IMG/VR virus record: IMGVR_UViG_3300012931_000015
Span: 99,579 to 163,578 of that record
DNA: 64,000 nt
DNA from: a virus
Strand: one strand, 5' to 3'
Shown here: positions 23,342-63,692 of the stretch, one piece after another
How the letters are laid out: every line of letters starts with the position of its first letter
Numbering within the stretch: position 1 is the first letter of the stretch
The notes under the pieces: generated by a model
Told to the model about the DNA's origin: nothing
Database searches by the model: none
What the model saw: the letters and a program-made list of their open reading frames with translations, nothing else
Translations under genes and position numbers: made by a program

Positions 23342-24007
23342 TTACCATATTTTTTCCAATATAGATATAATCAATATTATTTGTTTTTCAGAAAACTTCC
23401 AACGAATCCCATTCACTTTTGAAAACCATTCAAAAGGTGTATTATGTCTCTCCTCACTCATTGAGCAAAAATCTGCACACATTTCAGCAACATAAATATC
23501 AGGCATCTTGGTAGCATCTATCATTCCATTAGGAATAGTAGTTCCATCACGACTATTAATATCTAAAATATTTTCTTTTCTATCTTGCCAATACTCCGGG
23601 TGGTGTGGGCTATTCGTTACGTGGTGCTCCGTTGCTTTATACAAATTTTTTCTAATATCATCTGAAATATCAAACTTAATTTTATTATCGTTGCAATAGT
23701 AATCCCAAGTAATAATTATATAAGGTGTTAATTCAGGTTCTTCTAATTTTAATTTATCGTGATACCTTGCATTTTCAATTAAACCTATAAATCTATCACC
23801 AAATTTATCTTGAATAATTCTACAATATTTTTGAACTAAATTTATATGATTGTGTGTTCTTTTATAATACCAATTAGTCATTTCAGGTGTTATAATTTTA
23901 GAAAGGGGATTATCAACTGAAGATACATAAATAATATCATTTTCTTTTAAATCAATATTATCTAATCGTATATTTTCTTTTATCTTTAATTTATAAAGTT
24001 TTTTCAT
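23342..24007 (-). CDS. DUF5662-like protein with N-terminal module
   Basis: A 221-residue protein. Residues 1-30 form the shared module (MKKLYKLKIKENIRLDNIDL, then KENDIIYVSS). The rest has the DUF5662 pattern: H-I-N-x-V, ARYHDKLKLEEPELTPYI, a THHVTNSPHHPEYW-like His-rich loop (TEHHVTNSPHHPEYW) and AEMCADFCSMSEERHNTPFEW. The His/Asp arrangement suggests a metal-dependent hydrolase, similar to HD-type proteins, though unproven. I start at the Met giving MKKLYK, since the earlier start overlaps the previous gene. Confidence 0.75.
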   Translation of the reverse strand: MKKLYKLKIKENIRLDNIDLKENDIIYVSSVDNPLSKIITPEMTNWYYKRTHNHINLVQKYCRIIQDKFGDRFIGLIENARYHDKLKLEEPELTPYIIITWDYYCNDNKIKFDISDDIRKNLYKATEHHVTNSPHHPEYWQDRKENILDINSRDGTTIPNGMIDATKMPDIYVAEMCADFCSMSEERHNTPFEWFSKVNGIRWKFSEKQIILIISILEKIW

Positions 24008-25037: not shown

Positions 25038-25502
25038 TTATTCTACACCAAAAATGAATTTTATTCCTTTTGTTGCCAAAGCTTTTTGACCTTCTGAATT
25101 ATCCTTTGAAGATATACGCATCGTGTCAAATTGATCTGGTTCTAACTGTCTAAACCTGTGGTAGTTATCAGTAGTATCTACTTTTCCATATTTATATCCA
25201 TGATCTTTAAGCCAAGCTTTACTTTCACCCACACTAAATTTGTTGACATCAAATAAAATTGATTGAACTTCAGAAGCCTCTTTTAACTTCATTTCAACAT
25301 ATAATACATCGCCTTTCTTCAATGTCAAGCTTTTTTCTAAAAAAATATCTCTATCTGCTATAAGTTTTACTAACTTTTTACTTTCTATCATGCCATCTAT
25401 AACATCTTTTTTCTTCTTTTCTGTGCCTTGATTTTCTGGAACATCCACTGACCCTGTAATATCGCTTGAAACTTCTAATTCATTTAAGTTTTTATTTTTC
25501 AT
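25038..25502 (-). CDS. Module-bearing putative virion protein
   Basis: A 154-residue protein. I use the ATG at 25502 (MKNKNLNELEVSSDITGS) because an upstream start would overlap the HNH gene. Residues 41-75 carry the shared module (KKLVKLIADRD... LTLKKGDVLYVEM), then KLKE|ASEVQ, a gp21-type cleavage match. The C-terminal WLKDHGYKYGKVDTTDNYHR is a domain I recall from phage capsid-associated proteins. The opening ELEVSSDI is repeated in the protein at the right end of this window. Confidence 0.6.
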   Translation of the reverse strand: MKNKNLNELEVSSDITGSVDVPENQGTEKKKKDVIDGMIESKKLVKLIADRDIFLEKSLTLKKGDVLYVEMKLKEASEVQSILFDVNKFSVGESKAWLKDHGYKYGKVDTTDNYHRFRQLEPDQFDTMRISSKDNSEGQKALATKGIKFIFGVE

Positions 25503-25515
25503 AACTTTATAGTCC

Positions 25516-26460: not shown

Positions 26461-26471
26461 ATATTTTCTCT

Positions 26472-27732: not shown

Positions 27733-27996
27733 TTATTTTTTTTGAATTTTTTTTGATAAATCAATAGCTTTATTTAATATATCAATTATATTTTTGTATT
27801 TTCCATTAAAATCTGTTATATTTAATCTCATTATAACATAAGTAAGAGTTTCTATCATTGCTGGTATATCACTATACTTAAACAATTCATCTTCAAGTCT
27901 TGCAATAGTATCATAATTTTCTTTTATTCTTAATTTACTTTCGAGTTTATTTATTTCTTCTTTTATTTTGTTGATTTCTTCTAAAGATTTTTTCAT
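27733..27996 (-). CDS. Coiled-coil protein sharing an EEINKLESKL segment
   Basis: An 87-residue protein. MKKSLEEINKIKEEINKLES followed by KLRIKE|NYDTI is a helical segment that also occurs at the internal start of the 32098-32706 gene. The IKE end again matches [LI]-x-E. I use the ATG at 27996 with AAAAAGGAAAATAAA upstream rather than the earlier start, which overlaps the neighbour. Confidence 0.6.
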   Translation of the reverse strand: MKKSLEEINKIKEEINKLESKLRIKENYDTIARLEDELFKYSDIPAMIETLTYVIMRLNITDFNGKYKNIIDILNKAIDLSKKIQKK

Positions 27997-28015
27997 ATTT
28001 TTATTTTCCTTTTTG

Positions 28016-30377: not shown

Positions 30378-30965
30378 TTAGTCAAATTCTTCATCATTAA
30401 ACTTATCTGCTAATTCTTGCCAATTAACTTTATTTAATTCACTAGGGCTATCCATGTCAGGTGAACCTTTTGGGTAAAATTTCATAAACCATTTCTTTAT
30501 GCTATTTTTATCCCAAGATTTAATTTTCTTCTGCATAGCAACTCTGTCTTTATATATTTTTTCTTCATTATCAGCCCATAAAGCCATATTCCAAGTTTCC
30601 CAATTTGTCCAACCATTATATGATTCTTTCAAATTATTTTTAACAGGAATATAAACTATATCACCCTTTTCAAGTTCTATGTTTTCAATTATTTTATTTT
30701 TTGTGATTATTTTTTTAACTAATTTCATTTCTTCCACTTTCATACTCGCAATTCCTTCTATATATTTTTCTTTATTTTTAAAAAATTCATATTCTTCTTC
30801 ACTAGCAAAACCACCCCAAATATCTATATCCATATTAGGATTTTCTTTTTGAAAGACCGAAGCAATAGCATATATATCTTGCTGTGTAACTGCCCCTTTA
30901 AATAGTATTTTTTTATTTGGAGCATCACAAATAGCATAAAATTGAAATTCTTCTTTCAGTTTCAT
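30378..30965 (-). CDS. Module-bearing protein with GWxNxETWN domain
   Basis: A 195-residue protein. Residues 1-75 are a small alpha/beta domain (FYAICDAPNKKILFKG ...). Residues 80-113 are the shared module (MKLVKKIITKNKIIENIELE, then KGDIVYIPVKN), followed by LKE|SYNGWTNWETWNMALWA. The last is a GW-x-N-[WY]-ETWN motif of a small domain common in phages. An internal start with GAAGGA before MKVEEMKL is possible, giving a separate module protein. Between tail genes by position. Confidence 0.6.
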   Translation of the reverse strand: MKLKEEFQFYAICDAPNKKILFKGAVTQQDIYAIASVFQKENPNMDIDIWGGFASEEEYEFFKNKEKYIEGIASMKVEEMKLVKKIITKNKIIENIELEKGDIVYIPVKNNLKESYNGWTNWETWNMALWADNEEKIYKDRVAMQKKIKSWDKNSIKKWFMKFYPKGSPDMDSPSELNKVNWQELADKFNDEEFD

Positions 30966-32097: not shown

Positions 32098-32706
32098 TTA
32101 TTTATATGTAATTATATAAGATAAATTTTTACCATCTATAACAACAATTCTTCCATCATCACTTTTTACATTTGCTGAATATTGACTCATTGTTATAGTA
32201 TTAGCACCCTCAACAAAATGTATATTAGAAGCATCACCCTTAACTTTTGCAACAATAGGTATAATTGCTATGATTAAATCACCTTCTGATTTATTTCTTA
32301 CAAAAACAGATTTAGCATCCATTATTTTGTCTAAAACATCATTTGATATTTTTGCTTCTTTTATTTTAAGTTTACTTTCTAATTTATTTATTTCTTCTTT
32401 GATATTTTTAATTTCATTTTTTACTGACATTTTATTTTCCTTAAATTGAGACCAATCTTGAAAAGCATCTTCTTCATCTACTGTTCTTTTTTCAAAATCT
32501 ATATTAATTTCTTTCTTTGCAGTTTTTGTGTCAACATAAGTTATATCTTTTGATATTTTAGGATTTTTATAAGAAGGTGCGCTTTTCATACTATAAAAAG
32601 CTTGAACATATTTTTCATTATTAACAAAAATATAATCACCACCATTAAATATTCCTTGTTTGACTGATTTTTGTAATTCTTCTATATTTTTAAATTTATT
32701 GTTCAT
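32098..32706 (-). CDS. Putative virion protein with internal translation start
   Basis: A 202-residue protein. The first 92 residues (MNNKFKNIEELQKSVKQGIF) form one domain. Then comes FKENKMSVKNEIKNIKEEIN, in which AAGGAAAATAAA lies before the internal ATG (32430), so a 110-residue C-terminal product is likely. That product opens with the helix shared with the 27733-27996 protein, then KIKE|AKISN, and ends in a beta domain. It lies between sheath and tube. Confidence 0.55.
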   Translation of the reverse strand: MNNKFKNIEELQKSVKQGIFNGGDYIFVNNEKYVQAFYSMKSAPSYKNPKISKDITYVDTKTAKKEINIDFEKRTVDEEDAFQDWSQFKENKMSVKNEIKNIKEEINKLESKLKIKEAKISNDVLDKIMDAKSVFVRNKSEGDLIIAIIPIVAKVKGDASNIHFVEGANTITMSQYSANVKSDDGRIVVIDGKNLSYIITYK

Positions 32707-35909: not shown

Positions 35910-36377
35910 TTATTTAATAGTATTTCGTGCTTTTTTTTCTATATAATCTATTTCAGGTAATTTGTTAGAAAAATATATAATTTCCGCATAAAAATTATTA
36001 TATAATTGATCTGTTATTTGTTTTTTCCTATCTGCTAAAAGCAATGGTGATAAAGCATTTTGTTTTGCTAATTTAGGATAATTATGTAATAACATACTTA
36101 GATACATTTTTATATTTGGAGAGGGAAATTCATAACCTTTAAATGTGTACTCTTCTGTTTTACCAATAGTATTACCAGATTCTGGATCATATTCTTGTAT
36201 TTCAACTACTTGATATTTTTCCCATCCACCCCTTCCATCATCTACACGATATACTTTTTTATTAACAATAAAACCTCTCATATCAAATGATTCAATAAAA
36301 ATTGTATCGCCTTTTTTCAATATAGTGTTTCCAATATGCTTCTCTTCTTTCATTATAACTTTTTTTAATTTTTTCAT
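35910..36377 (-). CDS. Module-bearing protein
   Basis: A 155-residue protein. Residues 1-30 (MKKLKKVIMKEEKHIGNTIL, then KKGDTIFIES) are a clear copy of the shared module. The middle is beta-rich, with YRVDDGRGGWEKYQVVEIQE, and the C-terminus is helical (LLLADRKKQITDQLYNNFYA). No other domain is recognised. Located between neck and hub-like genes, among virion genes. Confidence 0.6.
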   Translation of the reverse strand: MKKLKKVIMKEEKHIGNTILKKGDTIFIESFDMRGFIVNKKVYRVDDGRGGWEKYQVVEIQEYDPESGNTIGKTEEYTFKGYEFPSPNIKMYLSMLLHNYPKLAKQNALSPLLLADRKKQITDQLYNNFYAEIIYFSNKLPEIDYIEKKARNTIK

Positions 36378-44250: not shown

Positions 44251-45102
44251 TTATAATTCAAAAATTATTAAATATTCTCCTTTAAAAATATTTTTGCTAC
44301 TTCTTTGAAAATGATTTAAATTATTTATACTTCCTAATTTTATTTCTTTAGTATATTTAAGATTTTCTTCTTTACATATTTTAACCATATCATATTTATA
44401 TTTATTATTTATTACAAAACTAAAATATTTATTACAATTAATTAAAGAATTTTTAACAGAAGCTCTCCACCATTTATTCAACCAATCAACATAATTGTTA
44501 TATAATATACTTGAAGTATTTTTGTTATTATATTCTTCAGTATTATAATAAGGAGGGCAGGTAAAAACTGCATCATATTTTTGATTTGGGATAAATTGAC
44601 TTGAATCTTTATTATAAAATATTTTATTCTTATTTGGAAAATCTAAATCATTAAATATAAAAATACAATTTTTATAAGTTCTTTCATCAACATCATTATA
44701 AATATAATTTATATTCATAGCCCCTAACAGTCTATGCCCCCAACCCCCACAAAAATCATAAATTGATTTTATATTATACTCTTCAATAAAAGCCTTAATC
44801 CAATAAGAACTAAAATGTGAAAAACTATTATGAATACCACTTATTTTAAACCCTCTTAAAATTTCTTTATCAGTTAAATCATATTCTGCTTTATTTAAAT
44901 ATTTTATTCTGTTTTCAATAATTTTTCGTCTAATAATAGGATCATTTTTATATAAATAATTTTCATATTCAAAAAAATGAGGCTGATAAGTTAAAATTAT
45001 TTTATTATTACAAGGATTTTTATTATAACTTCCTTTATTATTCTTCAATTTATTAAATTCTTTATTTATTTCTTTTTGAGAATATTTATATTCCAAACCC
45101 AT
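44251..45102 (-). CDS. DNA methyltransferase (class I, PPY motif)
   Basis: A 283-residue protein. DFCGGWGHRLLGAM (residues 116-129) is the S-adenosylmethionine-binding motif I, and FTCPPYYNTEEY (180-191) is the catalytic PPY loop of amino-methyltransferases (adenine-N6 or cytosine-N4). Its ATG overlaps the stop of the preceding nuclease gene by one codon, so the pair is translated together. It would protect DNA from a cognate nuclease or mark phage DNA. Confidence 0.8.
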   Translation of the reverse strand: MGLEYKYSQKEINKEFNKLKNNKGSYNKNPCNNKIILTYQPHFFEYENYLYKNDPIIRRKIIENRIKYLNKAEYDLTDKEILRGFKISGIHNSFSHFSSYWIKAFIEEYNIKSIYDFCGGWGHRLLGAMNINYIYNDVDERTYKNCIFIFNDLDFPNKNKIFYNKDSSQFIPNQKYDAVFTCPPYYNTEEYNNKNTSSILYNNYVDWLNKWWRASVKNSLINCNKYFSFVINNKYKYDMVKICKEENLKYTKEIKLGSINNLNHFQRSSKNIFKGEYLIIFEL

Positions 45103-46496
45103 TATAAAACTCTTTTAATTTGAATTATTATATCATTTTCATCCTTAAAACTAAATATTTCTAAATATCTTAAATTATTCTCAATAGCTATTTTTCTTTT
45201 TAAAGGATCAAGAATAGTCCATACATATATAGCTTTTTCATAAAAAATTTTTCTTTTTCCTTTAAAATTTATTTCTTCAAGTTTTTGTGTATATTTTCTC
45301 AATATGTTCTGATGTTCTTCATTTTTAGAATTAAAAGCTTCTTTTCCGTGTGTCCAATTTCCTTGATACTCAATGAATAAATCTTGTGCAGGCAAATAAA
45401 AATCACAAGCGTAAGGATACCTTTTATCATCTCTATACTGTCTTTTTACTTCTTTAAAATTTCTAACTAAAATATCATATATATAGTCTTCTGATGAAGA
45501 AATATTAAAACTGTTGTTTTTCTTTTTTGTATTATATATTTTTTCTTGTACTTCTTTTGTTTGAGTAGGAAATTTAGTTCCATATCTTTCTAAATTTGTA
45601 TTATCTGCTTTTTCTTTAAATTCTTTTATTTGTAAAGCATATTCTTTACCATATTTACCCTTTATTATATTTCTCATTCTTTCTGAATTTTCAAATAAAC
45701 TTTTTACCCCATATTTATTTTCACAAGTATTTTCTTTTTTTATTTTTATATTTTCATTTTGGGATACATTTTCAACTCCATATTTTTCTCTTACAGTATC
45801 TTTTACTTTTTCTTTTATTTCTTCTGCTTGAAAAACATTTTCACATCCGTATTTTTCTAAGTTAGTTTGTTCTCTTTTTGCAATTGTTTCGGGTAAAGAA
45901 AGAGGATATTTTACTCCATACTTTTCTAAATTATTATTTTCTCTAATTTTTTTTATCTCTTTATTTTGCATAGAGTGTTCAACCCCGTACCTTTCTAAAT
46001 TTGTTTTAACAATTTTTTCCCTTATTTCTTCAGATTTTGAGGCATTATCTACTCCATATCTTTCAACACAAGTCTTTTTTCTCTTTTCAATTACATCTTT
46101 ATTTTGTAAACTATATTCTGTTCCATATTTTTCTAAGCAAGTTTCTTTCATTTTTTCTTTAATCTTTTCTGATTTTGCCGGATTATCAACACCAAATTTT
46201 TCTAAATTAACTTTTTTTATTTTGTCTTTAATTTCTTCTGATTGAAAAGCATTTACTACCCCGAATTTTTCTAAAACAACACTATTTCTTTTGCTCACAA
46301 TACAATCTTTATTATTACATCCTATTCTAACTTTAAAAAACAATAATTTCTTAATTAAGATTGTTCCACAATTTAAATGCTTATATGTAATAGTTTGTTT
46401 TTCCCAATCAATATTAATAAATTCATATTCTTTATTATTTACTTCATTTTGTTTAATGAAATGTTTTTTATAATCATCTTCTGTCCATTTTTTCAT
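45102..46496 (-). CDS. Nuclease with 11 tandem 23-residue repeats
   Basis: A 464-residue protein. It has an N-terminal Cys segment (TYKHLNCGTILIKK ... IGCNNKDC), residues 75-325 with 11 repeats on the pattern L-E-[KR]-[YF]-G-V-x-N-x-x-Q-S-x-E-I-K-E-K-I-K-x-T-[NC], then a C-terminal nuclease-like domain (YACDFYLPAQDLFIEYQGNW, C-D-x(8)-D-x-F-I-E-Y-Q-G). The E-Y-Q-G with upstream D is the PD-(D/E)XK-type or Vsr-like core. It is followed by the methyltransferase with an overlapping start. Confidence 0.75.
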   Translation of the reverse strand: MKKWTEDDYKKHFIKQNEVNNKEYEFINIDWEKQTITYKHLNCGTILIKKLLFFKVRIGCNNKDCIVSKRNSVVLEKFGVVNAFQSEEIKDKIKKVNLEKFGVDNPAKSEKIKEKMKETCLEKYGTEYSLQNKDVIEKRKKTCVERYGVDNASKSEEIREKIVKTNLERYGVEHSMQNKEIKKIRENNNLEKYGVKYPLSLPETIAKREQTNLEKYGCENVFQAEEIKEKVKDTVREKYGVENVSQNENIKIKKENTCENKYGVKSLFENSERMRNIIKGKYGKEYALQIKEFKEKADNTNLERYGTKFPTQTKEVQEKIYNTKKKNNSFNISSSEDYIYDILVRNFKEVKRQYRDDKRYPYACDFYLPAQDLFIEYQGNWTHGKEAFNSKNEEHQNILRKYTQKLEEINFKGKRKIFYEKAIYVWTILDPLKRKIAIENNLRYLEIFSFKDENDIIIQIKRVL

Positions 46497-46647: not shown

Positions 46648-48105
46648 TTAATAATTTAAATTAGAAAGTGTCAACATTCTTATATATTTCTTCTCTACTA
46701 CTTTAGCATCGCCGAAATGTGCTAACGCACCTTCAGTTTTAAAGGTCTGAGGATAAGTAAGAGTACCTGCATCAAACATCTGAATCAAAGTTCCAAAAGT
46801 TATTGCTGAATCAGCTTCATTAGCTGGATTCTTATAGATACACATTATCTCATTATTTGCAACTAAGTTAGCATCAGCAGGACATTTATAAACCTCTGCT
46901 CTACCTATCTTACCTACTAAATGCAATCCAATCTCTGGCTGTGAATAATCATCAGTCCAAGTTTTATTGAATGACAAGTAAGTACAAGCACCCGGCCCCG
47001 CAACGATCTTGCTAATAGCACCACGTTTAAGGTCATTAAATATTGCGTTACCAGCTTTGTTAATATAACCAGTAACCATCTGTGCGTGTTCCCACTCAGA
47101 ATCAGCACCAGCGTTAGCAAAGTTAGTATCCATCATGATAGTAGTATTTGATTTTCCACACCATCTACCAAGCTGTACCGCTCTGTAATCTCTTGCTTTC
47201 ATCAACTCTTCCGCTACGGATTTGGTGAGAATTTCTTTCGCATCGCCAAGACCAGTAGTACCTATAATCAATTCAACAAGTTTTGTATAGCTGAATCCTA
47301 ACGGGCTAATTTTTGCTTCAAGTTTATGCTTAACAATATTAATTTTAGCCTGACCGAACTCATCATAGTTACCTGTATTTTCAGAATCCCAGTTATATTC
47401 AACCTGAATTGAAACGCCACTTGCAGGAGCAGTATCAAAAGTAACACTTACCGAACCACTTGAATAAACGATTGTAGAACTTGCAAGTAAAGTTGATTCA
47501 CTAAAAGCACCATCGCCATCATCAAGAGCTTCATAAGCACCATTAACAACTAAAATAACTGATTTTGTTCTTAACGGAGTAGTAGTCATAGTTGCAGTAA
47601 AAGTAACGGTTGAACCATCACCTGTACCTAAAGTCTGTAACTGTTTTTCCGAAGCGAAATATCTATCAGTTGATTCATAGTATTTTGTACCGTCTACGCT
47701 CGGTGATCTTGTAGGTGTACCGTCATAAACAGCATTTACAAAATAGAAAGTATCGTCAGTTGACAACATAGGAATTTCTCTAAAGATATTTCCTAAGTTA
47801 CTATTCGGAGCACTAAGTCTTATTACTTCCAAAACTTTTTCAGGAGTCAAGCTAAAACTAGATGAAATGCTTGTTTCTTTCATCAGGGCTTTCATGTGAT
47901 TTAACTGATTCTCCATATAAACAGCAGTTTTTCTTTTTTCAGAATCAGAAAGCTTATTCCAGTTCTCAAATAATCTAGGGTATTTCTTTTTCTCAACTGT
48001 TTCCCATTTATAGACTATTTCATCATATCTCTGCTCTCTTGATTTCTCGGCTAACATTGCCTGTTCCTGCAATTTGTCAGCACTTTCTCTCATTACTGTA
48101 CGCAT
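46648..48105 (-). CDS. Major capsid protein, gp23-like
   Basis: A 485-residue protein. Helical N-terminal propeptide to about residue 77, ending ALMKE|TSISSSF, which fits [LI]-x-E processing as in T4 gp23. The rest reads as HK97-type shell sequence: SLTPEKVLEVIRLSAPNSNL, IKSxMRDY-like MKARDYRAVQLGRW, and GYINKAGNAIFNDLKRGAIS. Near residues 160-245 a GDGSTVTF Ig-like domain is inserted, shared with the sheath. It forms the head shell; two TTGACA promoters lie upstream. Confidence 0.85.
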   Translation of the reverse strand: MRTVMRESADKLQEQAMLAEKSREQRYDEIVYKWETVEKKKYPRLFENWNKLSDSEKRKTAVYMENQLNHMKALMKETSISSSFSLTPEKVLEVIRLSAPNSNLGNIFREIPMLSTDDTFYFVNAVYDGTPTRSPSVDGTKYYESTDRYFASEKQLQTLGTGDGSTVTFTATMTTTPLRTKSVILVVNGAYEALDDGDGAFSESTLLASSTIVYSSGSVSVTFDTAPASGVSIQVEYNWDSENTGNYDEFGQAKINIVKHKLEAKISPLGFSYTKLVELIIGTTGLGDAKEILTKSVAEELMKARDYRAVQLGRWCGKSNTTIMMDTNFANAGADSEWEHAQMVTGYINKAGNAIFNDLKRGAISKIVAGPGACTYLSFNKTWTDDYSQPEIGLHLVGKIGRAEVYKCPADANLVANNEIMCIYKNPANEADSAITFGTLIQMFDAGTLTYPQTFKTEGALAHFGDAKVVEKKYIRMLTLSNLNY

Positions 48106-48295: not shown

Positions 48296-49471
48296 TTATT
48301 TAAATCCCATCTTTCCAATCCAGTTAGTGGATTTAGTAGATGCTTCGCTTATTTTTGAAAAATTTCTCTCTTTAAACTTAGAAACTTTTTTAGTGGACTC
48401 TTTTATCTCTTCTTCATCCTCTACTTCAATTTCATCTTCTTCAGTCATAGCTTCATCTTCATCATCAACTATTTCGTCTTCTTCGGTTATCCCATCTTTA
48501 TTTTCTTCGTCATCAATAACATCTTCTTCTTCAGAAATTAGTTTTACTTCTTTTAAAGACTTAATACCAAACTTTTTACACAAAGCACTTTCAGAGATTA
48601 TAGAATCGTCTTTATCTTCTTTTTCAGAGTCTTCCGCATCACCTTCTTCTTCTTTAACTTCTACTTCGTTTTTGTCTTTTGTTTCATCTTCTTTATCATT
48701 ATTTACAAGTTCCTGTTCTAATTTCAGGAGTTTTCGTCTTAATGTTTTAATTGACTCTTTTATATTTTCTTCATCTTCAGGTTTTTTCTCATCAGAAACT
48801 TCGTCAGTCTCTTCTTTTTTTACTTCGACTTCAGCGTCTTTTTTCTCATCTTCTTTGTTGTCTTCAGGTTTAACTTCCTCTTCCTCTTTAACTTTCGATT
48901 TAGCTTTTTTTGAAGCTTCCTGTTTTTTCTTAGCGATAGATGCCTTAACAGCTTTAATTGCTTCTTTAACAACAATCTCGTCTTCGTCAACAACATCTTC
49001 AACCGGAACAACCTCTGCACCTATTACGTCAGTCTCTTCGGTCATAGTTCCATTATCAGCCTCACCCTTAGTAACATCATTAGATTCTTCATCAGAACCT
49101 TCAATTTTTGTATTCTCATCTTCTTCTTTAATACTTTTTTTGATCTCTTTAAATACACTAAGAGATTTGTTATATTTTTTTCTCAAATCTTCAAGCATAT
49201 CCTCTGTCATTTCATCTTTCTTTTTAAAATTTTCTATAACAGTAGCCTGCTCCATGATTGTTCTATTTAAATTTTCAACTAAAATATCTATGGATTTATC
49301 AACCTGCTCAACTAAAGATTTAGCTTCAGTAGCTTCTAAAACTTCTTTTATATCTTCTTTAATCTGCAAAAGTTCATCTAAACCTTCTTTTTTATTCGGG
49401 TTTTTTACGGCTTCTTTTATAGCTTTTCTCTTACTTTCTTTATAATTTGCTAATTCTAACTTTTCAGCCAT
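48296..49471 (-). CDS. Nested scaffold product from an internal start
   Basis: The ATG at 49471 (MAEKLELANYKESKRKAIKE) is preceded by AAGGAG (49486-49481) nine bases upstream, and by ATACTAATA 30 bases upstream. Both are inside the fused gene's coding sequence. It would give a 391-residue acidic scaffold, comparable to the nested scaffold Nu3 within the lambda protease gene C. The strength of the site makes a separate product likely. Confidence 0.7.
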   Translation of the reverse strand: MAEKLELANYKESKRKAIKEAVKNPNKKEGLDELLQIKEDIKEVLEATEAKSLVEQVDKSIDILVENLNRTIMEQATVIENFKKKDEMTEDMLEDLRKKYNKSLSVFKEIKKSIKEEDENTKIEGSDEESNDVTKGEADNGTMTEETDVIGAEVVPVEDVVDEDEIVVKEAIKAVKASIAKKKQEASKKAKSKVKEEEEVKPEDNKEDEKKDAEVEVKKEETDEVSDEKKPEDEENIKESIKTLRRKLLKLEQELVNNDKEDETKDKNEVEVKEEEGDAEDSEKEDKDDSIISESALCKKFGIKSLKEVKLISEEEDVIDDEENKDGITEEDEIVDDEDEAMTEEDEIEVEDEEEIKESTKKVSKFKERNFSKISEASTKSTNWIGKMGFK

Positions 49472-50221
49472 TTTGTTCGTCTCCTTAAAATTTACATTAT
49501 TATTAGTATTCACCTTTTCTGAAAGTGATATATCTTTTGACATTTTTATTTTATCGTTTTTATCTGTGGTTGTTGAAGGGGGAAGGGTTTTTGAGTTTTC
49601 TTTTACAATATTATCAGATGTAGCTCTAACTCCTTGTGAACTGTTATGTACCCAGTCAGCGAGATGGTCGAGGTCGAAAGAATCCCAACATATAACATCT
49701 ATACCTTCTTCTAAATCTTTGTAATTACTTAGTTCTTCTTCCCTGTATTCAAATTCTCCAAATCCGACTGTCGAAAATTCTATGAAATTTGCCCCTGCTT
49801 TTAAAGCATCTAAAAGTAATTTTCCATTTTCCCCAATTAAGTATAAATCTGCTTTACCTGTCTCTTCTCCTGCTTTAAAATTGTGCCAGATACCACAGGT
49901 GAGAAGCACGTTTTGAGAATCTTCTGCATGATTAGCAAAACAAGATGATCCTTCTGAAACACCTTCCTTTTGTATTCTTTCCCATAATTTTTTCGGGTAT
50001 AAACGCTTGTTGGCGTTAGGAACGTAACGGGTCACGTCAACGCCCTCTAAAACAGCTATTGCATCATACTTTTTACCTTCAGACTCTATTAATTTATTAT
50101 TTTTTTCAAGAATTCTTATATTATCAATATTACTAATTCTTAAAGGAAAACTTTCTATTAAAAGTTTTTTACCCTTTTGTTTAGCTATTTCTTCAAAATT
50201 TTTATACATCGTTTTCTCCAA
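48296..50221 (-). CDS. Prohead protease-scaffold fusion (gp21/gp22-like)
   Basis: A 641-residue protein. The protease half has His98 (FANHAEDSQN) and Ser150 (FIEFSTVGFGEF), with RYVPNANKRLYPKKLWERIQ, the pattern of T4 gp21-type serine proteases. From about residue 250 it is highly acidic and helical (EEDENTKIEGSDEESND ... EEDEIVDDEDE), like scaffold gp22. It would be cleaved itself (ANYKE|S, AIKE|A). Most myoviruses encode these as two genes; here one ORF with a nested start. Confidence 0.85.
   Translation of the reverse strand: MEKTMYKNFEEIAKQKGKKLLIESFPLRISNIDNIRILEKNNKLIESEGKKYDAIAVLEGVDVTRYVPNANKRLYPKKLWERIQKEGVSEGSSCFANHAEDSQNVLLTCGIWHNFKAGEETGKADLYLIGENGKLLLDALKAGANFIEFSTVGFGEFEYREEELSNYKDLEEGIDVICWDSFDLDHLADWVHNSSQGVRATSDNIVKENSKTLPPSTTTDKNDKIKMSKDISLSEKVNTNNNVNFKETNKMAEKLELANYKESKRKAIKEAVKNPNKKEGLDELLQIKEDIKEVLEATEAKSLVEQVDKSIDILVENLNRTIMEQATVIENFKKKDEMTEDMLEDLRKKYNKSLSVFKEIKKSIKEEDENTKIEGSDEESNDVTKGEADNGTMTEETDVIGAEVVPVEDVVDEDEIVVKEAIKAVKASIAKKKQEASKKAKSKVKEEEEVKPEDNKEDEKKDAEVEVKKEETDEVSDEKKPEDEENIKESIKTLRRKLLKLEQELVNNDKEDETKDKNEVEVKEEEGDAEDSEKEDKDDSIISESALCKKFGIKSLKEVKLISEEEDVIDDEENKDGITEEDEIVDDEDEAMTEEDEIEVEDEEEIKESTKKVSKFKERNFSKISEASTKSTNWIGKMGFK
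49501..49509 (-). promoter_or_regulatory. TACTAATA motif inside the protease gene
   Basis: Minus strand ATACTAATA, encoding Asn-Thr-Asn in the fused protein, 30 bases before the nested scaffold start. Confidence 0.45.
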
Positions 50222-50259: not shown

Positions 50260-51282
50260 TTATGTAAAATCAGCATAGTAAAACACAGGACTTTTTTCAT
50301 TTAAAGAATAAATTTTCCAACCTTTATAATTGTTCGTTTTACTTTTTTCATATAAAATATGTTGAAAACCACTCACTGATAATTTTTGTTCTTCACAAAA
50401 ATTTTTTAATCCATAATTAACTTCATACCTTTCATTATTAGGCGAAAAAATAATATAAGTTTCAGTAACTTTACTATTTTTACCTTTTTTTATATTTGAT
50501 AAATGCTCTCTTTGTTCTTTTGTCCAAACTCTTCTTCTATTTGCTTCTCTAATTTTTTCTTTAGCTTCTTCTGAATGTGTTTTACCGTACATACCATTAT
50601 TTTTTCCAAGTAAATTAGGACATTTTTTATTCTTTTTTGAAACTTTTTCTGTTTTTTTAGAATAAAATTTTACTTTTCCTTTTACACCCTCAAGCCAACC
50701 ACTATCTAAATAAGCTTGTAATTCTTCAGCACTAACTAACTTTCTTTCACTACCATTAAAAATCCATTTCAAACCTCTTCTACTATCGCCTGTTTTTGGA
50801 TTTTTTACTCCCTTTTTTGCTTCACTTAACCTTTTTCTGCCCTCTTCTGTAATAAAACTTTTTCCTTTATGTGATTCACTTAATTTAAGTCTAGTTTCTT
50901 TAGAAACTTTTCTATTAGAATTTGCTAAACCAATTTTTTTAAATATAAGCTCTCTATCAGGATGATGGGTAAAGTTATCTTGACCTTCCCCACCTGTTCC
51001 TATATTGTAGCCAACAGGTCTAAAACTATTTAATTCTTTTATCCAGTATCTCTCTTTTTCAATTAATTCTTCTTTAGTCACACAGTTTTCAATTATCTCT
51101 TTTTTAAAGTTTTCTTTTCCATGCTTTTTTATTGCATATTTAATTAATTTTCCAGAACCCCAATAATTCTCAAATTTTACACTTTTTGCATTTCTTTGTA
51201 AATTAAATTTTCCAACATAAATTTTATTATTGATTAGATTAGTTATTTTATAAATAACTCCAAATATTCCTTCATTATTCAA
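50260..51282 (-). CDS. GIY-YIG homing endonuclease
   Basis: A 340-residue protein. The N-terminus has GVIYKITNLINNKIYVGKFN, the GIY-YIG core with an F-G-S-G-like W-G-S-G turn and EIIENCVTKEELIEKERYWI. Residues 100-270 carry NUMOD-type helices (KVSKETRLKLSESHKGKSFI, MYGKTHSEEAKEKIREANRR), and the C-terminus a DNA-binding helix pair. It sits between the protease-scaffold and the module-protein cluster, as a mobile intruder. Confidence 0.85.
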   Translation of the reverse strand: MNNEGIFGVIYKITNLINNKIYVGKFNLQRNAKSVKFENYWGSGKLIKYAIKKHGKENFKKEIIENCVTKEELIEKERYWIKELNSFRPVGYNIGTGGEGQDNFTHHPDRELIFKKIGLANSNRKVSKETRLKLSESHKGKSFITEEGRKRLSEAKKGVKNPKTGDSRRGLKWIFNGSERKLVSAEELQAYLDSGWLEGVKGKVKFYSKKTEKVSKKNKKCPNLLGKNNGMYGKTHSEEAKEKIREANRRRVWTKEQREHLSNIKKGKNSKVTETYIIFSPNNERYEVNYGLKNFCEEQKLSVSGFQHILYEKSKTNNYKGWKIYSLNEKSPVFYYADFT

Positions 51283-51364: not shown

Positions 51365-51661
51365 TCAAATTCTATTCCTTATCACTGTCGCAAAAGGAAC
51401 AATAAATAAATTTGTTGATAAGCCTTTACTATCTGTAGCTACACACTGATATTCTACAATTTTATTATGTTTTAAACTTCTTACTTCATAAAAATCAACA
51501 ACTTCATTAATTATACTGCTGCCTTGTTTAAATTTATCCCCTATTTTAACACCTTTTATTTCTTCAAAACTTTCCTTCATAACTACATAAATTACATCAC
51601 CTTTTTCAAGCTCAACATTTCCTATTTTTCTGTTTTCTTTAATTATAACTTTTTTTAACAT
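51365..51661 (-). CDS. Module protein, 98 aa, MKES site
   Basis: A 98-residue protein. Residues 1-30 are the shared module (MLKKVIIKENRKIGNVELEK, then GDVIYVVMKE|SFEE), followed directly by the cleavage-like MKE|S. The remaining 68 residues are beta-rich, with EVRSLKHNKIVEYQCVATDS. This is the shortest complete member: module plus a single small cargo domain. Confidence 0.65.
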   Translation of the reverse strand: MLKKVIIKENRKIGNVELEKGDVIYVVMKESFEEIKGVKIGDKFKQGSSIINEVVDFYEVRSLKHNKIVEYQCVATDSKGLSTNLFIVPFATVIRNRI

Positions 51662-51677
51662 TATTTTTTCCTTTATT

Positions 51678-54386
51678 TTATTTATATTGTTTTATCACAC
51701 TTCTAACATTGTCAATATAATCTTCCACTTCGGTATCCCCAAATTCTTTCATATCAAACGCAATTCGGTAAATTTCTTCCATCACAGCTAAATTGAGTAA
51801 AGCATTTTTGTTATTCTTTTTTATTGCTATGTCTATTTGCTGATCTACTAAATCTCTATTTCGTTTTAATTTTGCTTTATCAAGTTTTAGTGTTTCATTG
51901 ATTAGATTTACTATTTCTTTATCAGATAAATTTCCATCTTTTGCTACACCGGACTCATTCAATTCATTTTGTTTAGCTTCACTTCTGTAAGTTTTTAAAC
52001 CGCTTTTCATATTTTTGCTACCATATTTTTGTATATAGTCTACAATTTCTTTTTTTATTAAAGCAAGTTCTTTATCATCCATTTTATCAAAATTTCTTCT
52101 TATTATCCTATTTGTTTCTGGTAATGTTCCATTTGTCTGGATACTCATATTACTTGAGTTTGGATATTTGAATCTTACTACTTGATTTCCATTAGCATCA
52201 AGCCCTTCACCTGTTACGGTTATATTTGTACCTTTTAATTCATATTCTTTTTTTGCTTCATTTAATGATTTTCTATCTTTAAATATTTTACTCATAACAT
52301 TATAAGTAGCTTGATCCTTTTCATCTATTTTTTTATTTAACTGTTTATAATTTTTTAATTTAGTTTCTAATGTTAAAAGGTAATGCTCTAAAGTTTTAAT
52401 TGGTGTACTTCTATAATAATCACCCATTTCTTTTTCAACTTCTTTTTCTAAATCAGTTATTTTAGATTCTTTAAAGTTTACATACTTATTTTCTTTTAAC
52501 CAGTCTTTTACTTCAGTATCATACACATTTAATTGTTCTTCAAAAATATCAAACTTTGCAACTAAATTATGTGTTTTTTCTGAATATATTTCTTGCTTGC
52601 TTCCGTTTTTTATTCCCCAAAACTTATAAGGAAAAGCTAATAATTTATCATAATCATTTATTGTGAATCTTATATTTTTAGGTGAAGCTTCTCTTATTTC
52701 TTTTGACTCTTTTACTTTAACAAATTCCCCTGTTCTGGTTGCACGATAAGGTTTAATTTTTTCTTTCTCGTACTTTTCTTTTTCATCTTTTGTAAAAGTC
52801 GTCCAAGTATGCACATTTGAAGAAAAACTACCATTCCTCTTCAGTCCGGCATTACCTGATAAATAATAAAATTTTTCATCTTCTTCTTTCATTTCTTTTG
52901 ATTCTTTATAATATTTTAAAATATTAAACCTTTGTGCGTCATAAAGTTGATCCCACTCTGAATCATGTTCCCCATCTGAATAATCTTTAAATAAATTTTT
53001 ATCATATTTATCAGGAAAATATTTACTAAATTTTTTTCTTTCAGGATGATCTTCAAAAGCAGATAACATATACATCATTACATGCTCTATAGAACTAACC
53101 ACATATTTGTCAGGTTTATTTTCTAATTCAGGGTAATCTTTTAATAATTTTCTATATATTTCTTTTCCATACTGTGTAAATAGTTTTTTAGAAGCAGAAG
53201 ATATGTCTTCTTTTAATTTTGCCTCTCTAAAATTATCCTTTATGCCATTTACTACCGTAACTAAGCTTTCAAATTCCCAATCACCGTTAGGTAGTTTTTC
53301 TCCGAACTGATATATATCTTCTACATCTACTTTATATTTTTTTGCTATATCAACTATCTGATTTTTAGTTAAAGAAAAATAATCTTTTTTACTACCTTTC
53401 TTCATTACTTTTTTAATGTCTAAGGTAATATCACTTTCTTTACTTTCATTTGTCTTTATTCTATCCTGCATACTTTTTAATGCTTCAGTTTCACTTTCAA
53501 GGTCTTTTTTTAATCTTTCAATTAAATCTTTATCATCATCTTCCTGTGCCTGTAAGAGATCACCTTTTAATTTATTTATTGTTTGTTTCTGATCTAAAAT
53601 ATCAGCTTTATCTTGGGCTTCATCTTCTCTCAACTTATTTTCATTTAAATCATTAAAAGGTGGGTTTTCTTTTTCTATACTTTTAATTACAGATTTAAGG
53701 TCTTTATCTTGCAGTTTTGTATCTTTTTCAATAAACTGTAAATCAGAAATCATTAAACTTCTTCTTTCACCGGACTTTACTGGAATATTAAAATAATCTA
53801 AAATTTTTCTTAGTTGACCATCAGAAAACTTATTCCAATTTATAGATTCTTTCAACTTATTTTTTTCATTTTCTTTTATTATGCTTTCACTTTTCTTACT
53901 TAAAATTGTTTTTACTTCATCATCTGTCAAATAGGCATTAAGTTTTACATTCCATTTTTTATCAAAGGATTGTAGCCATCGCTCATAATCCCCGTCTTTA
54001 TTTTTTTGAATAATTTCTTTTACATCTTTCCCATTATATTTTATTTTTCTAGTAATAATACCATTTTTTTCTAAATCCTTAAAAGCGTCTTCTTTCATTT
54101 CTTTTGATTCTTTATAATAAGGTTTAACTCTTACTGCTAAATCTCTCAAGGCATCCTTTGTTATACCATCATTATTCATTACGTTATCATACCAATCTTT
54201 ATATATCGTATAAACACCGGAATAAGGTCTGCCATAATGATATTCTCTGGTTGCCCAATTATAAATATCCTGTAATTCTTTTACATTAAAATCAGCATTA
54301 TATTCTTCAACAAATATTTCTTGACCTTTTTTTAATTCTATACCTTCAATTACACTGTCTTTCTCTACAATTATTTTTCTTAACAT
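51678..54386 (-). CDS. Large module-bearing internal protein with repeated cleavage-like sites
   Basis: A 902-residue protein. Residues 1-30 are the module (MLRKIIVEKDSVIEGIELKK, then GQEIFVEEYN). The rest has several folded-looking segments separated by KES/KEA/KED peptides: YYKESKEMKEDA, NKLKESINW, FREAKLKEDI, YYKESKEMKEED, VKESKEIREAS and NFKESKITDLE. Two of these linkers are encoded by nearly identical 31-base DNA. It resembles a polyprotein of internal head proteins. No known enzymatic domain seen. Confidence 0.65.
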   Translation of the reverse strand: MLRKIIVEKDSVIEGIELKKGQEIFVEEYNADFNVKELQDIYNWATREYHYGRPYSGVYTIYKDWYDNVMNNDGITKDALRDLAVRVKPYYKESKEMKEDAFKDLEKNGIITRKIKYNGKDVKEIIQKNKDGDYERWLQSFDKKWNVKLNAYLTDDEVKTILSKKSESIIKENEKNKLKESINWNKFSDGQLRKILDYFNIPVKSGERRSLMISDLQFIEKDTKLQDKDLKSVIKSIEKENPPFNDLNENKLREDEAQDKADILDQKQTINKLKGDLLQAQEDDDKDLIERLKKDLESETEALKSMQDRIKTNESKESDITLDIKKVMKKGSKKDYFSLTKNQIVDIAKKYKVDVEDIYQFGEKLPNGDWEFESLVTVVNGIKDNFREAKLKEDISSASKKLFTQYGKEIYRKLLKDYPELENKPDKYVVSSIEHVMMYMLSAFEDHPERKKFSKYFPDKYDKNLFKDYSDGEHDSEWDQLYDAQRFNILKYYKESKEMKEEDEKFYYLSGNAGLKRNGSFSSNVHTWTTFTKDEKEKYEKEKIKPYRATRTGEFVKVKESKEIREASPKNIRFTINDYDKLLAFPYKFWGIKNGSKQEIYSEKTHNLVAKFDIFEEQLNVYDTEVKDWLKENKYVNFKESKITDLEKEVEKEMGDYYRSTPIKTLEHYLLTLETKLKNYKQLNKKIDEKDQATYNVMSKIFKDRKSLNEAKKEYELKGTNITVTGEGLDANGNQVVRFKYPNSSNMSIQTNGTLPETNRIIRRNFDKMDDKELALIKKEIVDYIQKYGSKNMKSGLKTYRSEAKQNELNESGVAKDGNLSDKEIVNLINETLKLDKAKLKRNRDLVDQQIDIAIKKNNKNALLNLAVMEEIYRIAFDMKEFGDTEVEDYIDNVRSVIKQYK

Positions 54387-54414
54387 AATGGTTTTTACTT
54401 CCTCTTTTTTATTT

Positions 54415-54786
54415 TTATAAGTAGTTATCTAATAAACTATATAATTTATCTACATCATCATTTTTGAATTTATTCATAACAATATTATTAAATATAGTGT
54501 TATCAAGTAAATTTCTAACAAATTTAGACTTTATTCTATTATTATCTAATAATATCTCATTTTTATATTTATCTTTAAATTTTTTACCTTTCAATATATT
54601 TTCTAAAAAACTGTATAAATCTTTAAAAGACTTTATGTTTTCAAGTTCTAAATCAAATATTTCATCAGAGGTAGTAGCAATATAAGGCATTTCTTTTAAT
54701 TGCTTTTTAGGTTTTATATAAATTGTTTGACCTTTTTTCAGATTAAATTCTTTTATACTTTTAGATAAAATTAACTTTTGTAACAT
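54415..54786 (-). CDS. Module protein, 123 aa
   Basis: Residues 1-34 are the module (MLQKLILSKSIKEFNLKKGQ, then TIYIKPKKQ) followed by LKE|MPYIATTSDEIF. The cargo is a helical domain of about 85 residues (FKDLYSFLENILKGKKFKDK, then RFVRNLLDNTIF-type sequence). Next gene follows after five bases. Confidence 0.65.
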   Translation of the reverse strand: MLQKLILSKSIKEFNLKKGQTIYIKPKKQLKEMPYIATTSDEIFDLELENIKSFKDLYSFLENILKGKKFKDKYKNEILLDNNRIKSKFVRNLLDNTIFNNIVMNKFKNDDVDKLYSLLDNYL

Positions 54787-54791
54787 ACTTA

Positions 54792-55334
54792 TTATTTTCC
54801 TTCAGCGTCTTTCTTTACAGCATCTTCTAAATCTTTTAAGAAGGGTAAATAATATTTTGAATCTTTAGGAGATACTTTTTCACCTTTTTTACCTATTTCG
54901 GAAAGATGATCTAATCCCACACGAGGAGCTAAATACTTTGCATAAGGATTTTTAGAGTCAAAATGTTCTAGCTCAACTTCTCGTGAAGCATCAAGTTGTT
55001 TTTTATCAACATCACTTTCAGTTACACCTTTTTCAAAAGCTTTTCCGCCTCTTAAAAAACATTGAACTATTTTATATATTTCAAGCTCTAATTGATGAGG
55101 ATTCATATTTAATTTTTCAGCAAATGAATGTATATCTTTCTCATCATCAGTTATTTCATGTTCTTTTAAATAATCTAGTATTTTAACTCTTATTTCGTCA
55201 GTTATTTTTATATTAGGTAATTCAACTTCTTTTTCAGCTTCTTTTATTTTATTTTTACTTTCAACATAAACAATCTGACCTTTTTCTAAATTCCAATCCT
55301 TTATATTTTCAGTCAATATTATTTTTTTTAACAT
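54792..55334 (-). CDS. Module protein, 180 aa
   Basis: Residues 1-35 are the module (MLKKIILTENIKDWNLEKGQ, then IVYVESKNK) followed by IKE|AEKEVELP. The cargo starts with a helical domain (IRVKILDYLKEHEITDDEKD) and includes MNPHQLELEIYKIVQCFLRG, an H-x-x-E-x-E-type helical bundle I recall from phage proteins of unknown role. The TACTAATA motif lies 46 bases upstream. Confidence 0.65.
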   Translation of the reverse strand: MLKKIILTENIKDWNLEKGQIVYVESKNKIKEAEKEVELPNIKITDEIRVKILDYLKEHEITDDEKDIHSFAEKLNMNPHQLELEIYKIVQCFLRGGKAFEKGVTESDVDKKQLDASREVELEHFDSKNPYAKYLAPRVGLDHLSEIGKKGEKVSPKDSKYYLPFLKDLEDAVKKDAEGK

Positions 55335-55487: not shown

Positions 55488-56153
55488 CTATATAGTAATA
55501 TCTATAACACGCTTATCATTATTTTCTAGTTTTTCCCAATAAAAACCTTTATAAAAACAAAAATTATTTACTGCGGTTTTAAATTTTTTACTTAACGTAT
55601 ATCTATCAATCCCTGTTTTATGAACATCTCTAAGACTAAGAAATGTCTCTATTTTATTGTATTCTTTATCATATTTAATAATTTTATAACTTTTTAAAAT
55701 TTTATGTTTTAAAGAAGTAGCATATTCTCTGAATCTTTTACTTAGACCAGCTCTACTAGAATCACATAAGCCCGTATCCCAAGCATGTTGCATATTATAA
55801 CTTTGTGTACACCATTCCAAATTACATACTTTATTATTACTCTTGTTACCGTCTTTATGATTTACTTGATATAAATTCTCTTTATTATTAATAAAATGTA
55901 AAGCTACTAATCTATGCACATAATAATTTTTTAATTTATTATTTTTACATAAAATTAATCGTAAATACCCATTTTCTTTTATTTCACCTATTCGTAGTTT
56001 TTCTGGCACAAAACGCTGTTGTTTTCCAAAACATACTTCTCTACTTATTGTTTTAACTTTTCCAAAATTAGATATTTTATAATACCCCGTATAATTTTCA
56101 CCGCCCCACGGGGACAAATCAATATCTTTCCATAATTCTAATGTTTCTTCCAT
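55488..56153 (-). CDS. NUMOD4/HNH homing endonuclease
   Basis: A 221-residue protein. WKDIDLSPWGGENYTGYYKI plus SNFGKVKTISREV is the NUMOD4 domain, followed by the HNH core YVHRLVALHFINNKENLYQV, NHKDGNKSNNKVCNLEWCTQ and SYNMQHAW. The C-terminus has a NUMOD1-like helix (FLSLRDVHKTGIDRYTLSKK). A free-standing homing nuclease of the type seen in T4-like phages. Confidence 0.9.
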   Translation of the reverse strand: MEETLELWKDIDLSPWGGENYTGYYKISNFGKVKTISREVCFGKQQRFVPEKLRIGEIKENGYLRLILCKNNKLKNYYVHRLVALHFINNKENLYQVNHKDGNKSNNKVCNLEWCTQSYNMQHAWDTGLCDSSRAGLSKRFREYATSLKHKILKSYKIIKYDKEYNKIETFLSLRDVHKTGIDRYTLSKKFKTAVNNFCFYKGFYWEKLENNDKRVIDITI

Positions 56154-62351: not shown

Positions 62352-63692
62352 TTATTTTAAATATGTAAATTTTTCTAATAATTTTAAAACATCATTTTCA
62401 TCTTTAAAACTAAAAATTTCTAAAAAATTCAAATTATTTTCTTTTGCTATTTTTCTTTTTAAAGGGTCATTTTCTGTCCAAATATAAACAGCACTATTAT
62501 AAAATGTTTTCTTTTCATTTTTGAAATTAATTTCTTGACTTTTATTTTTCCACTTTTCTAATTTTTTTAAATGATTGGGATTATTTTCATTAAAAATTTC
62601 TCTTCCATGAGTCCAGCATCCTTGATACTCAATAAATAAGTCATATTTTGGAAGATAAAAATCACAATTAAATGGGTATCTTTTTTCGTCTTTATACTGA
62701 AAAATCAAACTACTATCAATTTTTAAAAAATATTCTTTTAATTTTTTCTCAGCTCTTGAACTACTAAAACTATTATTTATTTTTTTTGTTTTATATATTC
62801 TTTTTTGGATTATAGAGGATTGAAGGGGGCTATCAACATTATAATTTTTTCTACATGTTTCAATTTTTTTATTCTTTACTTCTTCAATTTGGCTAGGATG
62901 TTCAACACCATAACGATCTAAAAGTGTTTTTTTAAATTTTTCTTTAGCTGCCTCCGCTTGAAAAGCATTCTCAACGCCATATTTTATTAAGTTAGTTTGT
63001 TTAATTTTTTCTTTAACTTTACTATTTTGAAATGCAGCCTCACACCCATATTTTTCTAAGCAAGTTTGTTTAATTTTTTCTTTTACTTCTTTAGCTTGCC
63101 AATGATAATCCACCCCATAATTTTTTCTACAAGTATCTATTTTCTTTTGCTTAATTTCTTCTGCTTGACTAGGATTCTCTACCCCGTAACGCTCTAAAGA
63201 AACTTCTCTACCTCTTTCTCTAATTTCTTTTAATTGAAGTGTAAATTCTACACCATACTTTTCTAAATTATTTTTTTTCTTTTTATCTTTAACAGATTCC
63301 GCTTGATTAGGGCTTTCTACACCGTATTTCTCTAAAGAAGTCTTTTTTGTTTTTTCCTTTATCATATCAGACTGCATAACACTATCAACACCGTATTTTT
63401 CTCTACAAGTTTTAATCCTTTTTTCTTGGAATTCTAATAATTGAAGGGGGTGCTCTACTCCGTACTTTTTTAAATAATTTTGTTTAATTTTTTTATTAAC
63501 ACATTCTTTGTTATTACAGGAAGGACTATATAAAAATTTATATTTGTTTTTTTTAACTATTTTTCCACACACCAAATGCTTATAAGTTATCTCTCTTTTT
63601 TCTTCGTCATAGCTTATAAACTCATAATCATTGCAACAATCCTGACCAATTATATTTTTGAACTCTTTCTCTAAATCTATTTTTTTACTCAC
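62352..63692 (-). CDS. Nuclease with 10 tandem 23-residue repeats
   Basis: A 446-residue protein of the same architecture as 45102-46496: N-terminal Cys segment (TYKHLVCGKIVKKNKYKF ... CNNKEC), ten repeats (LKKYGVEHPLQLLEFQEKRI to RKNYNVDSPLQSSIIQKRIY), then FNCDFYLPKYDLFIEYQGCW, the nuclease core. Its stop abuts the terminase start, so it sits directly upstream of a conserved virion gene, a usual place for homing nucleases. Confidence 0.75.
   Translation of the reverse strand: MSKKIDLEKEFKNIIGQDCCNDYEFISYDEEKREITYKHLVCGKIVKKNKYKFLYSPSCNNKECVNKKIKQNYLKKYGVEHPLQLLEFQEKRIKTCREKYGVDSVMQSDMIKEKTKKTSLEKYGVESPNQAESVKDKKKKNNLEKYGVEFTLQLKEIRERGREVSLERYGVENPSQAEEIKQKKIDTCRKNYGVDYHWQAKEVKEKIKQTCLEKYGCEAAFQNSKVKEKIKQTNLIKYGVENAFQAEAAKEKFKKTLLDRYGVEHPSQIEEVKNKKIETCRKNYNVDSPLQSSIIQKRIYKTKKINNSFSSSRAEKKLKEYFLKIDSSLIFQYKDEKRYPFNCDFYLPKYDLFIEYQGCWTHGREIFNENNPNHLKKLEKWKNKSQEINFKNEKKTFYNSAVYIWTENDPLKRKIAKENNLNFLEIFSFKDENDVLKLLEKFTYLK

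Follow-up and report, generated by a model that had tools for sequence, protein, structure and literature searches.

A recurrent N-terminal module in a phage with a T4-type capsid protein, a candidate tag for loading proteins into the head

The viral record IMGVR_UViG_3300012931_000015 of IMG/VR comprises 163,578 bases with a G+C content of 26%. Its last 64 kb (64,000 nucleotides, positions 99,579 to 163,578) form the window to which the coordinates below refer, unless they are marked as genome positions. The subject of this report is a module of about 27 residues which recurs in nine proteins of this phage, joined to unrelated domains, and which probably serves as a tag that loads proteins into the head and is cut off there by the prohead protease. 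The record encodes a T4-type capsid protein (Pfam Gp23, above cut-off) and a T4-like portal that narrowly misses the Pfam cut-off, along with a contractile sheath and, as a distant match, a large terminase, and the genes of all the module-bearing proteins sit among structural genes. No close relatives of the phage were found in IMG/VR or among the GTDB genomes with the capsid protein, sheath, portal and a 902-residue module-bearing protein as queries; there were only matches of 21-26%, to one Xanthomonas phage and one Pseudomonas phage.

The module and its nine copies

The initial annotation of the window listed eight segments of this kind, and all eight are present where it placed them. They are given here with the E value of their profile match in brackets; a slash marks a predicted cut.

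23924..24007, minus strand: module of the DUF5662 protein (1e-13); no site after the module
25278..25379, minus strand: module and site, internal to a 181-residue protein, ..YVEMKLKE/A (1.3e-12)
30624..30728, minus strand: module and site of the DUF7249 protein, MKLVKKIITKNKIIENIELEKGDIVYIPVKNNLKE/SYNGW (2.6e-13)
36294..36377, minus strand: module of a 155-residue protein, MKKLKKVIMKEEKHIGNTILKKGDTIFI (8.8e-16); no clear site
51572..51661, minus strand: module and site of a 98-residue protein, MLKKVIIKENRKIGNVELEKGDVIYVVMKE/S (3.5e-15)
54309..54386, minus strand: module of the 902-residue candidate polyprotein, MLRKIIVEKDSVIEGIELKKGQEIFV (1.3e-12); no [LIM]xE directly after it
54691..54786, minus strand: module and site of a 123-residue protein, ..YIKPKKQLKE/M (1e-12)
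55239..55334, minus strand: module and site of a 180-residue protein, ..YVESKNKIKE/A (3.4e-14)

A profile hidden Markov model built from these eight segments was run against the 1,141 stop-to-stop open reading frames (ORFs) of the whole record. It recovered all eight together with a ninth copy (genome positions 26364-26699, plus strand, MKLIKKIIKESKKIGNVELEKGDVIYVPMKEA), which lies outside the window, was absent from the seed and adjoins a baseplate wedge gene. The nine matches have E values of 1e-12 to 9e-16, and the first match beyond them comes at 0.07. With leave-one-out profiles each of the nine copies ranks over all non-members. An unbiased BLASTP comparison among the phage's own proteins also recovers the module (pairs down to E 1.4e-10), and an independent search of the genome returned the same nine places (E 3e-14 to 7e-18). 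The N-terminal position holds for seven of the nine, which begin their gene with a plausible ATG; the other two are internal as annotated. That in 30378-30965 has an in-frame ATG after GAAGGA, at which the gene may start, and that in 25038-25583 genuinely lies inside its gene, barring the use of a weak internal start. This last copy has MIE/S before and LKE/A after it, and may thus carry sites on both flanks.

Nothing significantly related to the module was found in Pfam, PHROGs or the PDB, and its profile gave no match in 16 phage records. A degenerate DNA pattern of the module, run over IMG/VR, hit 26 stretches, all of them chance matches or unrelated proteins. The very acidic 174-residue protein of 30971-31495 (C-terminus SGLTEGNKWK) has a faintly module-like N-terminus; it was rejected as a tenth copy, the module profile not finding it, and is possibly a gp67-like core protein.

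The domains behind the module are unrelated to one another, as initially described. Scanning eight of the nine proteins against Pfam identified DUF5662 in the 24007 protein (from residue 50, E 2e-23), DUF7249 in a second (from residue 113, E 8e-9) and, below the cut-off, a weak DUF5661 match in one protein; unnamed families also follow the module. None of these eight matched PF12699, the family of the inner-head paralogs of giant phages.

Two of the proteins were modelled with AlphaFold2. In the 180-residue protein (alignment of the window copies) the predicted local distance difference test (pLDDT) score is 89-94 over residues 1-20, with strands at 2-6 and 21-25. It falls below 50 over residues 29-36 (KIKEAEKE), which span the predicted IKE/A site, and from residue 46 onward a helical domain follows as a separate unit. 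The module of the 902-residue protein is modelled with strands at 2-6, 11-13, 16-18 and 23-27 (pLDDT 91-92 over residues 1-20). The module is predicted, with confidence, to be a beta unit of about 27 residues. The cut predicted for the DUF7249 protein, LKE/SYNGWTNWETWN, coincides with the start of stand-alone cyanophage relatives, which begin MNGWANWETWN and MNGWANYETWN; a third has a 13-residue lead ending MNETYNGW. Phage relatives of the DUF5662 cargo, sought for the same comparison of start points, were not found. Since a folded tag, a disordered site and a separate domain follow one another in the model, and since the DUF7249 relatives start at the cut, the module does not appear to be an integral part of each fold, which the initial annotation had named as one of the findings that would speak against a tag.

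A small beta unit on many proteins might instead be a nucleic-acid- or protein-binding domain, such as an SH3- or KOW-like fragment, which brings its carriers to a common partner in the infected cell and has no part in head assembly. Most copies of the module are basic, as such a domain could be, and the stretch LKKGDxIYV resembles SH3; this resemblance was rejected, being at chance level (best E 0.035), and fold searches with both models gave no significant match. The placing of every copy among structural genes, the protease-site-like linkers described below, and a domain which the 902-residue protein has in common with a prohead scaffold polyprotein all count against this explanation, and we regard it as improbable.

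The prohead protease and the sites that follow the module

Two genes of the window supply the head proteins with which the linkers of the tagged proteins can be compared.

46648..48105, minus strand: major capsid protein (Pfam Gp23, above cut-off), with a predicted maturation site LMKE/TS at residue 77
48296..50221, minus strand: gp21-like prohead protease fused to an acidic gp22-like scaffold (BLASTP, direct comparison with gp21)

The phage does encode a gp21-type protease, as the initial annotation held. The N-terminal part of this 641-residue protein resembles T4 gp21 (BLASTP E 4e-6 over residues 19-90), and the His and Ser of gp21 align with its NHAED and FSTVG; residues 241-641 have an isoelectric point of 4.5 and a charge of -49. 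Because Pfam Peptidase_S77 gave no match in the record, the assignment rests on the direct comparison with gp21. In the capsid protein the predicted site LMKE/TS lies 13 residues ahead of the conserved VLEVIRLSAPN, a place which by inspection looks like that of LLRE/ST in T4 gp24 (in a MAFFT alignment the two do not line up). The sites behind the tags, [LIM]KE/[ASM], are of the same sequence type.

The motif [LIM]xE followed by Ser, Ala or Met stands after the module in six of the nine copies; directly behind the tag it is missing from the DUF5662 protein at 24007, the protein at 36377 and the 902-residue protein. The background frequency of [LIM]xE[ASM] in 12 residues is 1.8%, and that of [LIM]KE, found within 12 residues in six of the nine copies, is 2.3%. 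The distance between tag and site varies from 4 to 9 residues. Relative to the rest of the proteome, [LIM][KR]E[ASTM] is about sevenfold enriched in the tagged proteins (p 6e-6, a partly circular figure as the motif was drawn from them) and about sixfold in the capsid protein, portal and protease-scaffold (p 6e-4).

Several points weigh against cleavage behind the tag. The six-of-nine motif was picked post hoc, among copies related by descent, and the strict T4 form, [LI]xE, follows the module in only four of nine, weakly above background (p 0.03-0.14). Three of the nine tagged proteins lack [LIM]xE directly after the tag. Both AlphaFold2 models derive from shallow alignments (8 and 16 rows), and in the collections searched no other genome yielded a relative of the module. 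What lends the post hoc motif weight is the enrichment of the same type of site in the core head proteins, together with the variable spacing between tag and site.

These figures bear directly on the possibility that the module sends proteins to the virion, whether head or tail, without being cut, KE being an ordinary element of a charged linker. In its favour, no site follows three of the copies, the proteins of this AT-rich phage (26% GC) are rich in lysine and glutamate, and the strict [LI]xE occurs at or close to its background level. Against it stand the excess of [LIM]KE over its background, the enrichment of the same site type in core head proteins, and the disorder and cargo domain boundary falling right at the site. 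As a general explanation we hold this to be unlikely; for the three copies with no site an uncut tag is possible. The absence of cleavage, part of the alternative offered in the initial annotation (a small binding domain with no cleavage), is likewise disfavoured, as the linker that holds the site is disordered and the spacing between site and module differs from copy to copy.

The 902-residue protein as a candidate polyprotein

The largest of the tagged proteins was initially described as a multidomain protein of 900 residues. It is multidomain; its richness in protease-like sites had been overlooked.

51678..54386, minus strand: tagged candidate polyprotein of 902 residues, about ten small domains between protease-site-like linkers (site count against shuffles)
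54090..54110, minus strand: paired linker 1, YKE/SKEMKE/D, residues 93 and 99 (site list)
53847..53873, minus strand: paired linker 2, IKE/NEKNKLKE/S, residues 172 and 180 (pLDDT below 50 at 172-179)
53625..53642, minus strand: paired linker 3, LNE/NKLRE/D, residues 249 and 254 (pLDDT below 50 at 242-253)
53208..53225, minus strand: paired linker 4, FRE/AKLKE/D, residues 388 and 393 (pLDDT below 50 at 391-408)
52884..52904, minus strand: paired linker 5, YKE/SKEMKE/E, residues 495 and 501 (site list)
52689..52709, minus strand: paired linker 6, VKE/SKEIRE/A, residues 560 and 566 (site list)
52467..52493, minus strand: paired linker 7, LKE/NKYVNFKE/S, residues 632 and 640 (pLDDT below 50 at 630-642)
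51954..52256, minus strand: domain 9 (QTNG..LP domain), bounded by LNE/A (710) and LNE/S (811)

Sites of the type [LIMFYV][KRN]E[SANDT], a pattern picked after looking, number 16 in this protein, where shuffled sequences give 2.1 (z 9.1, the top value in the genome). They are mostly paired at domain boundaries: with MKE/E at 501 added there are seven pairs, their members 5-8 residues apart, and single sites at 710, 811 and 831. Thirteen of the 16 fall inside low-confidence parts of the model or no more than 3 residues away from one (p 0.003), and ten are strictly inside (p 0.03); the first pair (93 and 99) is modelled as helix and not as disordered, which tells against a flexible linker there. 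The domains between the sites have the size of folded proteins (60-140 residues). No known family was found for any of them besides domain 9, and family scans revealed no embedded peptidase domain. From its sequence the protein reads as a site-rich head polyprotein.

Domain 9 is modelled with a pLDDT of about 90, falling below 50 in its flanks (705-711 and 800-813). Residues 708-826 match, with 33% identity, ORF140 of Flavobacterium phage MaF61, a protein of 1,404 residues annotated as 'putative prohead scaffold' whose N-terminus aligns with gp21. ORF140 has 30 sites of the type [LIMF]xE[NSA]; for [LIM]xE[SANT] the count is 29 against 6.2 expected (z 10.4). The two proteins thus have domain 9 in common, and in ORF140, too, a chain of domains with LNE, LFE and MNE sites follows, here after a gp21-like N-terminus. 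They differ in that MaF61 has protease and domains in one ORF and no tag module: its record gave no match to the module profile, and no tags of its own were seen. A pattern of domain 9 run over IMG/VR found 15 stretches, in about 13 of which it forms a stand-alone protein of 67-125 residues. The conserved QTNG is 39 and 62 residues from the flanking sites in the 902-residue protein, 38 and 54-62 residues in MaF61, and 39 and 58 residues from the protein ends in the stand-alone protein L055; the shorter stand-alone proteins have less sequence on either side. Because the distances to the sites agree with the ends of stand-alone relatives, at least domain 9 appears to be a complete small protein bounded by site-like sequences, the second domain after DUF7249 whose boundary matches such relatives.

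Another protein of MaF61 (PQ858689.1), ORF123 at 96272-99046, is annotated as a NUDIX hydrolase; it has 924 residues and 11 LNES-type sites against 3.3 expected, and is perhaps a second head polyprotein.

A site-rich protein of the prohead might also be part of its scaffold or core, like T4 gp67, gp68 and gp22, in which case the tagged proteins would be shredded and removed and not kept as cargo. The domain in common with the 'prohead scaffold' of MaF61, the position of the 902-residue gene next to the protease-scaffold gene and a density of sites resembling that of gp22 all favour this. It accords less well with inter-site domains as large as folded proteins, one of them stand-alone in other phages, and with smaller tagged proteins that have one site, near the tag. 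For the tagged proteins as a group we find it rather unlikely; for the 902-residue protein, a part in the scaffold with subsequent degradation has to be taken seriously as an alternative.

Proposed role and comparison with known systems

The explanation we favour, with moderate confidence, is that the module is a head-loading tag which the prohead protease cuts off, that the cargo is kept in the head, and that the 902-residue protein is a precursor of several cargoes. The tag, folded and mostly basic, would dock proteins onto the acidic scaffold core during prohead assembly; the gp21-like protease would then cut the flexible linker past the tag at [LIM]KE/[ASTM], and the cargo would remain in the head and be delivered with the DNA. 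In the 902-residue version one tag would recruit about ten small domains, to be separated by the same protease at the paired sites. What we infer is that the tag docks to the scaffold and that the cargo is packaged, cut free and delivered. The initial proposal of cargo addressed to the head is upheld in so far as the module is an add-on, a gp21-like protease is encoded, the genes have a structural setting and the sites are enriched; directly behind the tag three copies have no site, and the module is not homologous to the capsid-targeting peptide of T4.

T4 internal proteins enter the core by means of N-terminal propeptides that gp21 cuts at L/I-X-E (PMC9026906), and a review of T4 suggests that its capsid-targeting sequence (CTS) may represent a general loading route of T4-like phages (PMC9026906). 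As in the present phage, the T4 CTS (IPI, IPII, IPIII, Alt) is a short segment that stands at the N-terminus of proteins otherwise unrelated to one another, and the capsid protein, portal and protease belong to the same families. In T4 a gp21-type site comes next (MKTYQEFIAE/A in IPII and IPIII), to which the [LIM]xE[ASM] behind six of the nine tags may correspond. The CTS has 10-19 residues (PMC9026906), whereas the module has about 27, is predicted to be a beta unit and occurs in nine proteins, including one candidate polyprotein. Sequence comparison revealed no resemblance between the module and MKTYQEFIAE. Because it does not resemble the T4 sequence, is longer and is predicted to be folded, the tag is not a member of the T4 CTS; it would be a new form of the same principle, not homologous to it.

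The inner-head (ejection) proteins of phiKZ and SPN3US also start with propeptides, which are removed by cuts after Glu at sites that show redundancy (PMC10052503, PMC5694885). Most of those propeptides exceed 100 residues and the paralogs have a common body, whereas here the tag alone is common and the bodies are unrelated. For the 902-residue protein the nearest published idea, by analogy, would be the polyvalent proteins that phages and conjugative elements possess (Iyer et al. 2017, PMC5512222), which carry 2-15 small domains, are predicted to be packaged and delivered, and were compared to polyproteins by their authors. Their release is ascribed to embedded peptidase domains; here the predicted cutter is a separate prohead protease acting at paired linkers. 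We tentatively go further and suggest a head-packaged polyprotein in which about ten separately evolved proteins would enter under one folded tag, be cut by the protease inside the head and be delivered as a fixed set, the tag representing a new, non-homologous class of capsid targeting; this fuller version is the more doubtful.

Non-structural proteins are packed into the heads of T4-like phages, and the short CTS known so far is hard to spot when the phage is a distant one. With a folded tag that recurs nine times, the internal-protein repertoire of a phage would become readable from sequence, and such a tag suggests a new packaging handle. It also yields concrete predicted N-termini to seek. 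If processed as predicted, the 902-residue protein would be the equivalent, in a phage, of a viral polyprotein, with the capsid protease doing the cutting.

A second, helical shared segment was seen in 27733-28041 and 32098-32706. It is a helix of 26-27 residues ending IKE[AN], 85% identical over 20 residues between the two proteins, with an internal ATG ahead of each, and would fit a phage with more than one addressing segment.

27919..27996, minus strand: second helical tag, ..KIKEEINKLESKLRIKE/N
32356..32430, minus strand: second helical tag, ..NIKEEINKLESKLKIKE/A

The late region is broken up by unusually many apparent homing endonuclease genes (22564-23337, 25516-26460, 42487-44217, 45102-46496, 50260-51282, 55488-56153 and 62352-63692), judged from sequence, with a family search for 62352-63692 only. 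Lastly, the tail sheath (32716-34590, residues 170-212) and the major capsid protein (46648-48105, residues 201-243) have a beta insert in common, GDGSTVTFT...VTFDTAPASG (42% over 43 residues, E 1e-5, BLASTP among the phage's own proteins), which appears to be a decoration-like domain that serves head and tail alike.

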